Source: Ferribacterium limneticum | GTDB lineage: Bacteria; Pseudomonadota; Gammaproteobacteria; Burkholderiales; Rhodocyclaceae | Direction: 5' to 3' | Assembly: GCF_020510625.1 (NCBI RefSeq) | Contig: NZ_CP075191.1 | Location: 1,712,001 to 1,776,000 of the forward strand | DNA length: 64,000 nt | Part shown: one piece after another, positions 21,751 to 57,249 of the stretch | How the letters are laid out: every line of letters begins with the position of its first letter | Numbering within the stretch: position 1 is the first letter of the stretch | Notes under the pieces: model-generated | Told to the model about the DNA's origin: nothing | What the model saw: only the letters and a program-made list of their open reading frames with translations | The model's database searches: none | Made by a program: the position numbers and the translations under genes

Positions 21751-21853
21751 CTCCCTCCCCTTCAAGGGGAGGGCCGGGGTGGGGATGGGGTATTGCACGA
21801 TACGCAAACCGAACCCATCCCCCACCCATCCTCCCCCTTAGAGGGGGAGAAGC
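21751..21853. repeat. Two-armed GC-rich palindromic repeat (copy 1)
   Basis: Between gcvH and gcvP lie two arms, each with its own internal palindrome: CCCTCCCCTTCAAGGGG at the left with GGGGTGGGGATGGGG following it, and CCCATCCCCCACCCATCC at the right ending in CTCCCCCTTAGAGGGGGAG. The arms are inverted with respect to each other around a spacer of about 23 nt. A second copy, with the arm arrangement reversed, lies inside sbcC at 49337-49444. It behaves like a REP/BIME-type dispersed element and may affect gcvP mRNA level. Confidence 0.85.
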
Positions 21854-48664: not shown

Positions 48665-51600
48665 CTAAATCCTCAGCCGCGAATAGCCAACCCCACCGCC
48701 TTTTTCTACCCGAATCTGCGCCGGAATCCGCTCTTTCATGCCTTCGACGTGGCTGATGACACCGATCATCTTGCCGCTGGCGTTGAGTGTCTCGAGGGCG
48801 TTGAGGGCGATCTCCAGGGTGTCGGCGTCGAGGGTGCCGAAGCCTTCGTCGAGGAAGAGCGAATCGATGCTGGTCTTGTGGCTGACCAGGTCGGAGAGGG
48901 CGAGGGCAAGGGCCAGGCTGACCAGGAAGCTTTCGCCGCCGGAGAGGGTGCGGGTGTCGCGGGCGACTTCGCCTTGCCAGCTGTCGACGATATCGAGTTC
49001 GAGTTCGCCGGTGGTTTTGCGGCGCAGCAGGTAGCGTCCGTGCAGGCGGGCGAGGTGGCTGTTGGCGAGGTGGAGCAGGTGGTCGAGGGTCAGGCCCTGG
49101 GCGAACTTGCGGAATTTGTCGCCTTTGGCCGAGCCGATCAGGCTGTCGAGGCGTTGCCAGAGGTCGGATTCGGTTGTCTGCGCGGCGATATCCTTGAACA
49201 GCGCTTGCTGGCTTTGCCGGGCTTGTTCGTCGCGGGTGAGCAGGGCGCGCTGGGCGCCGAGTTGCTCGCTGAGTTCGCGGCGGCTGGTTTCCAGTTGGGC
49301 GAGGAGGTCGTCGAGTTCTGGGAGAGGGGGGATTGACCCATCCCCACCCCGGCCCTCCCCTTGAAGGGGAGGGGGCAAGGCTGGCGATAGAGCGAAGGGG
49401 TTTTCTCCTCCCCTTTCAAGGGGGAGGCCGGGTGGGGGATGGGGCGAATCCGGCGGGCTGCTTTGCAGACGGGCCAGCTTTTCGCTGGTGGCTTTAAGTA
49501 CCGCCTCGGCTTGTTGTTTGGCGAGTTGCCGGGCTTCCTTCAATTGCAGCAGGCGCTGGCGTTCTTCGGGGGGCAGCATTGCCGCAGCGTAGGCGGCAAG
49601 ATCAGCGAAGGGGCTGGCGGCGAGGGCGGTCTGCCAGGTGGTCGAAGCTTCGGCCACAGCCTTCTTCTGTTGTGCGAGGTTGGTTTCGAGTTGTGTTTGG
49701 CGGCCTTGCCGGGTGGCGAGCTGCTGCGTCAGGTCGGCAATGGTTTCGGTGCAGCGGGTGAGGGCAGCTGCCGGGTCGTCGGTGGCCTCGTCCTGTATTG
49801 GCTCTTGCCCTGTGGCCGGGCGTTCTGCGGCCAGTGTTTTCCAGCGTTCCAGCCACTGCGCTGCCTGCGTCTGTGCGGCATCAAAGCGATCCTGCTGTTT
49901 GATCAGGATTTCGGACAGTTCGTGGCGGCGTTTCTGGGTTTGCTGCCAGTTCAGCCATTCGCTATCGCGCTCCTGCAGCCAGATGGCGGGTTCGGCCGGG
50001 ATCTCGTAACCAACTTCGGTCAGCGTGGCCGCCAGCCGGCTGTCGAGTTCGGCCTGTTCCTGAACCAGTGTTTGCGCCGCTTTGGCCATTTCTGCCTGGC
50101 GAAGCTGGGCGGCTTGCGCCGTCTGTTGCAACAGCTTTTGCTGGTTGCCGGCGTTGAGCAGGGCTTGGGCGGCTTCGGTGGCAGTCTTGCGGGCGGCACT
50201 CAACGCCTGCTCGCCCTGGTCGGCGGCTTTCATCCGCTCGGTGAGTTTGGCGAGTGCCTGTTCGGCAGTGTTGCGCGCAGTGGCCAGGGTTTGGGCTTCC
50301 TGCCAGGCGTCGACTGCGAGCGGCGCTTCGCCGCTCAGGCTGGCGAGGAGTTCAGTCCATTCGGCCTGGGCGCGGGCGATGTCCTGTGTTGTCCGGGTTT
50401 GCTGGGCCAGCCATTCCTTTTGCGTGGCCTGAGTTGCCGCCTGTTCGGCTTTGGCTTGCTGGCCTTTCTGGACCAGCGCTTCGAGCGCGGCCTGTTTTTC
50501 CTTGAGCGCCGTTTCAGTGGCGGAAACGTCGAGCACGGCGTAGTCGGCAATCGCCGGGTGTTCGTGCGCGCCGCACAGCGGGCAGGCCTCGCCCGGCTGC
50601 AGTTGGCGGCGATGCGTTTCCAGGCTCTGGATGCGGCGTTCCTGCTCGAGCAGCTTCTGCTTGTCGGCGACCTGGGCGGCGAGTTCCTTGTGCTGGTCGC
50701 GCAGGGCGCCCAGCGCCTTTTCCTGGGCCTCGATCTTCTGTTCGCCTTGCTGCACTTGCATGGCCTGCGTTGTTTGCTGCACGGCCAGTTCGCGGCGGCG
50801 TTGGGCGAGGGATTCGAGTTGCTGCCAGCGGTTGAGGCCGGCCTGCTCGCGCTGCCAGTGCTGGCGCAGCTCGGCCAGCGTCTGTCCGGCCAGGCGTTGG
50901 TTCTGCTCGGCCTGGGTTTTTTCCAGTGCGGCGTCGGCAGTTGTTTTGGCCTTTTCGGCGCTGGCAACTGCGCTGGCTTGTGCGGCGCTCTGGCGGGCGG
51001 TTTCGGCGATTTCCTGTTCGAGCTTCTGCTGGGCTTGGTGCTGGGCGGCGAGGTCGCGGTTCAGCTTGGCCCGCTGTTCGAACTGCTGGCGCCAGACGCC
51101 GAGGCGTTCGCCGAGCTGGGCGCGTTGCGGCTGGGCGGCGCAGAAGTCGTCGAGTTGTTTGGCTTCGCGCTGGCTTTGTTGCTGGGCTTGCCGGGCCTGT
51201 GCGGCGACTTGGGCGCTGAGTCGGCTGGTGGAGTGGTGCTGGGCGAGTTGTTCGGTCTGCAGTTTTTCGCGGTCGGCGTGCAGGGCCTTGAGTTCGTTTT
51301 CGGTTTGTTGGCAGGCGGTGCTTGCCTGTTGCCATTGCAGGTGCAGCGGTTTCAGGGTTTCGGCCGGTTCACTGTCGGCCAATTTCTTCAATTCCGGTGC
51401 CGCCGCAGTCAGTGCCGCATCGGCTTCCTGTTGCTTGCTTTCGGCGGTTTTGACTTCCTGTTCGCCTTGCGCCAGATCGAGACGCCACTGGCGCTGGGTC
51501 TGGGTTTGCTGGTGGCGGCGCTGGATGTCGGTGAGTTGGGTGTCGAGACGGCCGGCTTCTAGTTGCATGGCAGTGCGTTGCTCGTCGCTCAGCAGTTCCA

Positions 51601-52237
51601 TGCCGTCGGCGCGGGCTTTCAACTGGTCGAGCTGGCTCTTGGCATCGCGGGCCTGTTCGAAAACCTTGCGCGAAATTTCGCCATAGATTTCGGTGCCGGT
51701 CAGTTCTTCGAGCAATTCGGCCCGTTCGTTGGCGCTGGCGTTCAGAAAGGCCGCGAAGCCGCCCTGGGCAAGCAGCATGGACTTGGTGAAGCGTGGGAAG
51801 TCGAGGCCGGTGATTTCGGCGATTCGCTTCAGCTTGTCGTTGGTCTGCGTGCTGAGGATGGTGCCGTCGCCATTGGCGGCAACTGAGGCCAGTTCAACCT
51901 TGGGCGCCTGCAGCGCACCGTCGATCTTGTCGCGAGCCCGGCGCTGGCTCCAGAAGGCGCGATAGACGGCGCCCTTCACTTCAAATTCGACCTCGGCCAG
52001 GCAATCGGCGGTGTGCCGCGTCATGATGTCGTTGTCGGTGGCCGAGATGGTCTTCAGGCGCGGCGTCTGGTGGTAGAGGGCGAGACAGATGCCGTCGAGC
52101 AGCGTCGATTTGCCGGCGCCAGTCGGGCCGGTGATGGCGAACAGGCAGTTGTCGGTGAAGGGCGGCTTGGTGAAGTCGATGGTCCATTCGCCCTTCAGCG
52201 AATTGAGGTTCTTCAGGCGCAGGGTGAGGATTTTCAT
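48665..52237 (-). CDS. sbcC: Nuclease SbcCD subunit C, with an in-frame repeat insertion
   Basis: A 1190-residue SMC-like ATPase of the Mre11-Rad50 type that opens DNA hairpins and ends with SbcD. Walker A is [14 protein letters not shown] near residue 35. Long coiled coils flank the zinc hook [12 protein letters not shown] near residue 550. The signature LSGGESF and Walker [13 protein letters not shown] are intact. Residues about 931-967 ([12 protein letters not shown] to [10 protein letters not shown]) are the translation of a GC-rich palindromic element within the second coil, close to the ATPase head. It is likely still functional because frame and catalytic motifs are kept. Confidence 0.93.
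49337..49444. repeat. Two-armed GC-rich palindromic repeat (copy 2), inside sbcC
   Basis: Arms CCCATCCCCACCCCGGCCCT with TCCCCTTGAAGGGGAGGG and, after about 32 nt, TCCCCTTTCAAGGGGGAG followed by GCCGGGTGGGGGATGGGG form an inverted pair. Each arm repeats the sequence of copy 1 upstream of gcvP, but here the GATGGGG blocks point outward while in copy 1 they face inward. The insertion keeps the sbcC frame open. Confidence 0.88.
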
Positions 52238-52262
52238 ACGGCTGCCCCGGCTGTTTTTTTCA

Positions 52263-52326
52263 CCGTCATTCCCGCGTAGTCGGGAATCCAGGTGCTTTCT
52301 GGATTCCCGACGGCGCGGGAATGACG
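52263..52326. repeat. ATTCCCGCG inverted repeat (copy 1)
   Basis: A near-perfect 64-nt palindrome lies between sbcC and sbcD: CGTCATTCCCGCG and CGGGAATCCAG at the left, CTGGATTCCCG and CGCGGGAATGACG at the right. A second, less perfect copy lies at 57181-57249. It is the type of dispersed intergenic repeat common in proteobacterial genomes. In the sbcD-sbcC mRNA it would form a long hairpin. Confidence 0.85.
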
Positions 52327-52349
52327 CTGTGTGGAGGTCTGGCGGGCTC

Positions 52350-53594
52350 TCATGCTGCGTCCTCGGTCAAGCTGGCAACGACGGCGCGGTAGCGTTGGTT
52401 CAAGGCGTGCTGCAGTTCGTCGCTGAGTGCTTCCTGTTGCAGCCGGCGGGCGAAGACATCGTGCGGGCTGAGTTCGTCCAGCATTTCTCTGGCCTCGGCC
52501 GTCAGGCTGGCGACCGCGTTGCCGCGCTGGCGACGGATGCGCAGCACCTCGACCGGCCAGCCTTCAGTCAGCGCTTCGATGCGGGCCGGCAGGTCGGCCA
52601 GGTAATCGTCTTCGGCGACGGTGACTTCCAGCCAGGCCGGGCGTTCGCGGGTACCTTCGGCGGCCGCGGCACCGATGGCGCCGGCCAGGGTGTCGAGATT
52701 GCCGCTGACGGCGACCAGGCTTTGAAAGCGCGGCACTGGCAGGACGGTGACGGCTTTGAGGCCATCAAAATCGAGATCGACGAGCAGCATTTCCTTGGTT
52801 TGCTTGGCTTCGTCGAAACCAAGCGGGATGGGCGAGCCGCAGTAGCGGATGTGTTCCAGGCCGCCGACTTTCTGCGGCCGGTGGATATGGCCGAGGGCAA
52901 TGTAGGCGGCTGGCGGGAAGGCGGCGGTCGGGAAGGCTTCGAGCGCACCGACGTAGATTTCACGCACCGATTCGCTGGTACTGGCACCGACGGTGGTCAG
53001 GTGGCCGGTGGCGATGATGGGTAGTTGGCGGCCGAAATTCGAGCCGAGTTCGGCGGCGAGGGTGGTCTGGCGTTCGACGGCGGCCGCGAAAACGGCGCTG
53101 TAATGTTCCTGGATGGCTGTTTGCAGCGACAGCTGTTTGTCTTCGGCGCTTTGGCCGGCCAGGCTTTGCAGGACGTCGCGCGGACGAACGAAGGGAATGG
53201 CGCAGACGATGCAGCCGGGGTCGCCCTTGCGTTGCGGCAGGACGATGACTTGCGTCGCAGGGTCGGCGTGCGTTGCGGCGATCACCGTGGTGCCCAGATG
53301 GGCGAGGAGTTCACGGCTTTCGCCCAGCGTGGCCGGCGAATCGTGGTTGCCGCCGAGCACCAGTAGCGGCACGCCGGCCTTGTAAAGTTGGCCGACCAGC
53401 TGGTTGTACAACTCGCGGGCGTAGCTGGGCGGCGTGCCGGTGTCGAAGATGTCGCCGGCGATCAGCACGGCATCCACCGCCTGCGTTTCCACTTGTTCGA
53501 GCAGCCAGACGATCAGCGCCTGATGCTCGGCCTGCCGGCTCTTGCCCATGAAGTGCTGGCCGAGGTGCCAGTCGGAGGTGTGGAGGAGGCGCAT
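52350..53594 (-). CDS. sbcD: Nuclease SbcCD subunit D
   Basis: A 414-residue Mre11-type phosphoesterase. The metal motifs are [31 protein letters not shown], and the histidines in ATGHLTTVG and ALGHIHRPQ. The capping domain and C-terminal part (Asp/Glu-rich) are present. It precedes sbcC on the same strand, separated by 112 nt that contain a palindromic repeat, so the two genes are probably still one operon. Confidence 0.95.
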
Positions 53595-57033: not shown

Positions 57034-57180
57034 GGCAAAACTCTCCCGGATATTGATGTTGGACCAAGCTATGTTGCCACACGCCAACCCGCGCCAAGCG
57101 GGAATTCAGAAAAGTCCAAGCCTTGGGCGAGCTGGATGTGTGAAAAATGAGGGCCAAGCCCCCAATTCTGCTCAGCTAAC

Positions 57181-57249
57181 CGTCATTCCCGCGAAGGCGG
57201 GAATCCAGGGCTTACGCATTTACTGGGTTCCCGCTTTCGCGGGAACGAC
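57181..57249. repeat. ATTCCCGCG inverted repeat (copy 2)
   Basis: CGTCATTCCCGCG with GGCGGGAATCCAG on the left and CTGGGTTCCCGC with CGCGGGAACGAC on the right form an imperfect 69-nt palindrome. It is the same repeat as 52263-52326 and lies just past the glpD stop, where it could act as a mRNA-stabilising hairpin or terminator. Confidence 0.85.

Follow-up and report, generated by a model that had tools for sequence, protein, structure and literature searches.

An in-frame repeat dimer of putative triplex architecture in sbcC of Ferribacterium limneticum, and its orientation among related species

Introduction

Triplex-type repeats are known in Escherichia coli as intergenic sources of instability. 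In the available text of Holder et al. (2015, PMC4666352) these PIT or TM_ECO repeats are GC-rich class II units of about 37 nt, ordered Py-loop-Pu-loop-Pu, with the consensus CCCTCNCCCN3-6GGGNGAGGGN3GGGNGAGGG. They are patchy among close species and are tied to local instability; in E. coli MG1655 they are reported to be always intergenic, and their inverted pairs always consist of one type A and one type B unit (PMC4666352). Here we describe a related family that is read as protein.

Palindromic repeats also lie within genes. As presented in the available text of Di Nocera et al. (2013, PMC3733652), intragenic REPs of the GTAG and CGTC super-families occur in genes of repair and synthesis (uvrABCD, recBCD, polA, dnaE2, ligase and RNA helicases); two Xanthomonas species have them at roughly one position of recB, and the removal by SbcCD of structures formed from inverted repeats is discussed. 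The main text of that paper does not name sbcC as a REP carrier. Rickettsia palindromic elements (RPE), palindromes of 105–146 bp, lie in frame in conserved proteins, gmk being an example, and are largely tolerated (PMC2229807). Template switching is described, in the accessible part of PMC8604942, as inverting the spacers between inverted repeats and making the arms alike. In the open-access literature we met no earlier account of triplex-type repeats that are translated, nor of such repeats inverting.

The insert in SbcC

Hairpins are the substrates of SbcCD, and the case described here lets one ask whether the enzyme works on a hairpin located within a gene that encodes it. The window, a stretch of 64,000 nucleotides of the F. 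limneticum genome, holds an sbcC gene (48665..52237, minus strand) that encodes 1190 residues and matches Pfam AAA_23 and SbcC_Walker_B. The top PDB match of its product is E. coli SbcC (6s6v/6s85; E 7.5e-186). Its upstream partner in the same operon is sbcD (52350..53594, minus strand; Pfam Metallophos and SbcD_C). The original prediction held that the sbcC frame runs through a two-armed, GC-rich palindrome, adding about 36 residues to the second coiled coil near the head. Both statements hold. The element (49337..49444, unstranded) is crossed by the frame without a stop and is translated, by codon mapping, as residues 932–967, the place that falls between residues 817 and 827 in E. coli SbcC numbering.

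How does the protein accommodate these residues? The insert would form a Pro/Gly-rich loop. An AlphaFold model places it between the helices 890–926 and 972–1034 of the coiled coil, and residues 933–967 themselves have a pLDDT below 50 and are without secondary structure; with a pTM of 0.30 the overall confidence of this model is low, and we use it for this local statement only. The simplest reading of the model is that the insert is tolerated in what would be a disordered break of the coiled coil. In the RNA form the element is far more stable than its own shuffles (folding z = -3.5). Glycine is encoded by GGG or GGA at 74% of the positions in the inserts of carrier species, as against 7% in the remainder of their sbcC genes, a bias that fits imported repeat DNA, being expected of a foreign origin.

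Could this be an ordinary low-complexity Pro/Gly linker, elaborated by point mutation and resembling a repeat by chance? The length of the SbcC linker does vary in all species. The foreign codon use, however, speaks against it, and the genome search described below, which found near-exact 37-nt matches elsewhere and none to a reversed control, refutes it; we regard it as practically impossible.

Architecture of the repeat unit

The two arms of the sbcC element are two different variants of 37 nt each, A and B, forming an inverted pair. Unit A (49337..49373, minus strand) reads CCCTCCCC-TTCAA-GGGGAGGG-CC-G-GGGTGGGG-ATGGG on the minus strand and has a stem of 8 bp. A spacer of 33 nt (49374..49406, unstranded) separates it from unit B (49407..49443, plus strand), which on the plus strand reads CCTCCCCT-TTCAA-GGGGGAGG-CC-G-GGTGGGGG-ATGGG and has one stem mismatch. 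On the G-rich strand the order of the unit is thus a pyrimidine stem, a TTCAA loop, a purine stem, a two-base linker, a G, a purine third strand and ATGGG. The position of a T-A pair sets the stem variants apart: CCCTCCCC/GGGGAGGG (A), CCTCCCCC/GGGGGAGG (B), CCTTCCCC/GGGGAAGG and CTCCCCCC/GGGGGGAG. The corresponding third strands are, in the same order, GGGTGGGG, GGAGGGGG or GGTGGGGG, GGATGGGG and GAGGGGGG.

Read in mirror order, these third strands usually place an A or a T exactly across from the A of the purine stem. All eight triads fit in the third strand of unit A and likewise in that of unit B; in total, 1142 of 1152 triads fit G.GC, A.AT or T.AT. Among 25 distinct units 191 of 200 triads fit, against 166.9 ± 4.6 with shuffled third strands, and none of 2000 shuffles scored as high; since the stem variants are few, the independent events are fewer than these counts imply. 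The unit shares with PIT/TM repeats the Py-loop-Pu-loop-Pu order, on a single strand and in mirror order, as well as its length of about 37 nt and its GC-richness (available text of PMC4666352). Its architecture is that of a class II intrastrand purine-motif triplex. We infer the physical fold from this order of letters, which does not distinguish it from a G-quadruplex, its competitor on paper.

The resemblance to TM_ECO extends to the pairing of units, since A+B inverted pairs are found in both; in the present family they make up 52 of 58 dimers, with one A+A and no B+B. It does not extend to the sequence. The main unit fails the TM_ECO consensus, having stems of 8 nt and another sequence, and T is found besides A opposite A.T pairs in the third strand, unlike in TM_ECO as given in the available text of PMC4666352. 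The loop measures either 5 nt or, in ten units, 35 nt, a discrete expansion of 30 nt. Rfam offered no identity: its matches were weak, generic hairpin models, mostly of microRNAs, all far under the gathering scores. Genes held outward-facing dimers more often (p = 0.014 when counted by gene and orientation), a weak tendency.

Copies elsewhere in the genome and the family

Does the arm recur? In the finished 4.2 Mb genome of F. limneticum (Rhodocyclaceae) the element gave 35 BLAST matches at 17 places, and the unit pattern matched 17 times; the reversed control pattern had no match in this genome or in any of 76 genomes of the genus. A second A/B dimer lies between gcvH and gcvP, as had been predicted (21753..21852, unstranded; flanks GCV_H and GDC-P), and at the homologous site of G050 it has the opposite orientation (G numbers denote genomes, L numbers the loci fetched).

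At six of the 17 places the element stands in frame in a conserved gene: sbcC, ppc (PEP carboxylase), an AcrB-type RND pump, an MmeI-type methyltransferase, an ABC transporter and an AraC regulator. This is unlike the TM_ECO repeats, reported as always intergenic in the available text of PMC4666352. Relatives have it in frame in polA, hrpA, cusA, cobN and an MFS transporter gene, and also in mmeI and ppc; in the polA of two species it separates the 5' exonuclease domain from the 3' one. Over the F. limneticum genome and its relatives this makes at least 11 conserved gene families, often with one site used in several species. The census covers fetched stretches, and its coding-potential screen, which missed some units, served only to find candidates. 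One copy, flagged as a broken gene with a stop in the element (L195), was rejected after inspection of the translations as an intergenic copy between nifU-like and nifS-like genes; apart from it the coding census held no apparent in-gene stop. This intergenic copy is common to F. limneticum (L004) and G061 (L195).

The likeness to Rickettsia palindromic elements is borne out: a palindromic repeat stands in frame in conserved proteins and is largely tolerated, in another host, with another composition and with a triplex architecture that is not reported for RPE (PMC2229807). The view of sbcC as an unusual target finds no support, given the number of gene families with an in-frame element and the intragenic REPs already published in repair genes (available text of PMC3733652). 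With those REPs the present family shares short palindromic units and dimers that lie in frame in conserved genes, polA and RNA helicases included; it differs in being without the tag and the transposase link of the GTAG and CGTC families and in having a triplex third strand (PMC3733652, text as available).

The element is patchily distributed, being present in 52 of 299 Rhodocyclaceae genomes sampled, which fall into 31 of 68 genera. The densest by a wide margin is G158, a small, incomplete draft of 1.7 Mb from the same family, with 285 unit matches. An MmeI-type methyltransferase gene of F. limneticum (L150 609-4184; G000:C1:3325608-3329183) has four in-frame palindromic inserts: one A/B dimer and three copies of a second repeat (LPSPASGRGAGGEG) with one or two mismatches to the TM_ECO consensus.

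The sbcC site across the genus

Ten other members of the genus share the occupied sbcC site, making eleven species in all. Two-armed inserts are found in F. limneticum, G014, G058, G050 and G019 and, with an expanded loop, in G072; one-armed inserts in G046, G016, G025 (decaying) and, with an expanded loop, in G004 and G005. Many relatives are without the insert. Comparison with close relatives, one of the checks proposed for the prediction, showed that the SbcC nearest in sequence, that of G047, is 90% identical across the first 931 residues and lacks it, having, as do the others, a short linker like TTPPPRDSVETPI or one shorter still.

A single vertical origin, with the carriers forming one clade, was rejected (four changes; AU p = 2.9e-6). 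Between G046 and G016 the one-armed linkers share about 97% identity, as against 74–93% for most of sbcC. From these comparisons it would seem that an sbcC allele was exchanged between lineages or that the site was hit repeatedly, two routes that are not fully separable.

Was the linker, as the most tolerant site, simply filled several times, by dimers or single units in either orientation? That the carriers are not one clade would fit such recurrent insertion, as would the left junctions, which differ between one-armed and two-armed forms, and the single cusA site that holds dimers of different topology in G029 and G061. Against it, the two-armed inserts without loop expansion all measure 107 nt and have closely similar junctions and homologous spacers; F. 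limneticum and G014 have the same left junction, GATTCGCCCCATCC; and the sbcC spacer is absent from the other dimers in hand (best score 1.5, as against 11.5 within sbcC). We consider independent insertion possible but rather doubtful.

Might the insert instead be adaptive, its palindrome or peptide modulating SbcCD, for instance as a sensor or as a feedback target of the cell's own hairpin nuclease? Synonymous identity is higher in the insert for 49 of 55 species pairs, the units staying near the family consensus while the gene diverges, and this conservation could reflect constraint instead of neutrality, or recent exchange. The eleven carrier species and the action of SbcCD on hairpins, with its discussed role at inverted-repeat structures (available text of PMC3733652), also lend the idea some appeal. 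We nevertheless think it improbable: the element stands in frame in unrelated genes (ppc, cusA, cobN, MFS and others), many relatives do without it in sbcC, and the segment is predicted to be disordered. Nor does the element depend on sbcC, for among the good genomes of the genus 12 of the 35 that have sbcC and 5 of the 16 that lack it carry the element, which is no association.

G016 has a perfect unit in sbcC, though its draft genome yielded no other copy. Two sister species, G004 (L037) and G005 (L038), have one sbcC unit each at the same place, but its class differs between them (A in one species, B in the other), as would be expected if a dimer flip had preceded the loss of one unit.

Orientation of the dimers

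If the dimer has moved between lineages, has it kept its orientation? The coding strand of sbcC carries unit A in F. limneticum and G014 and unit B in the remaining two-armed species. The spacer follows suit, matching those of other species either directly or only when inverted: between F. limneticum and G058 the score is 11.5 inverted and -2.0 direct, with shuffles at or below 3.0 (0 of 2000 as high). On the evidence of unit order and spacer, the dimer at the sbcC site has apparently inverted.

Among 38 pairs of dimers with homologous flanks, 19 had the same orientation, 17 were scored inverted and two fell into neither class. One of the 17, cusA L192/L200, was labelled inverted by the script, but its dimer topology differs, and we do not count it as an inversion. 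Both orientations were seen at seven sites: sbcC, gcvH-gcvP, mmeI, hrpA, the MFS gene and two further sites. An inverted spacer accompanies a swapped unit order (Fisher p = 1.4e-5; 0.003 without sbcC; the pairs are not independent). Strong spacer support for inversion is confined to sbcC, gcvH-gcvP and the two further sites; several inverted pairs outside sbcC were assigned by unit order, because their spacers are short.

The segment between the inverted repeats of sbcC is thus found either way round at a single site within a gene, as are intragenic invertons and the inverted spacers described in the accessible part of PMC8604942; the difference here is one between species, each represented by one genome, and, unlike in intragenic invertons, no recombinase was identified. 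It is also unlike inversion by template switching as described there, since here the A and B units change places intact and the arms stay unlike. Such switching of orientation is not mentioned for PIT/TM_ECO in the available text of PMC4666352. Since A and B swap whole and the third strands still match their stems, the breakpoints would be expected close to the dimer's outer ends. A bolder idea is that A/B dimers are miniature invertible elements that flip whole in living populations, switching sbcC and other genes between two 36-residue loops, with SbcCD helping to flip or prune the element in its own gene; we hold this to be a long shot.

Search for a mover

A Y1 transposase of the REP/RAYT type is one candidate for a mover. 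The short palindromes, the single units and the head-to-head and tail-to-tail dimers are as in REPs, and F. limneticum has two Y1_Tnp genes. However, no copy of the element was seen on inspection beside either gene, and no Y1_Tnp match was found in the element-rich G014, G101, G119, G188 and G158, so that in these five genomes and around those two genes no transposase is linked to the element. The unit moreover bears neither a GTAG nor a CGTC tag, the copies read ending in CTCC and GGATGGG. A REP/RAYT origin is very improbable on these grounds. One Y1_Tnp (RAYT-like) gene (L032, around G000:C1:1143712-1144044) has inverted ATAGGGGACAGACCACGGTTT ends on both sides and lies between two near-identical copies of flanking genes, as though the region where it inserted had been duplicated locally.

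Proposed history of the insert

The insert is probably a tolerated triplex-type repeat dimer that lies in frame in SbcC and has been repeatedly recombined and inverted, with no adaptation specific to SbcC. It belongs to a repeat family, patchy in the Rhodocyclaceae, whose units frequently form inverted A+B heterodimers. One such dimer would have landed in frame on the head side of the second SbcC coiled coil, in an unstructured break that tolerates differences in length, to be translated from then on as a Pro/Gly-rich loop that was tolerated, presumably as a neutral addition. Later the site would have been remodelled by inversion of the whole dimer, loss of one unit and the 30-nt loop expansion, and also by exchange across species or repeated insertion. 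The inversion itself would most likely have come about when replication or repair switched strand or template close to where the dimer ends on the outside.

The triplex-motif architecture of the unit, the dimers in both orientations and the filling of the same sbcC site in other species go beyond the original prediction. The empty, single-unit, paired and inverted alleles offer a natural comparison for studying how a short palindromic repeat enters a site and flips there, and the same series bears on the length of foreign linker that a Rad50-type coiled coil tolerates.

The sbcC/sbcD operon holds two palindromic families that are unrelated to each other. The second is a CGTC-type REP dimer (CGTCATTCCCGCG...) at 52261-52329, between sbcD and sbcC, to which a single copy at 57179-57209 is related.
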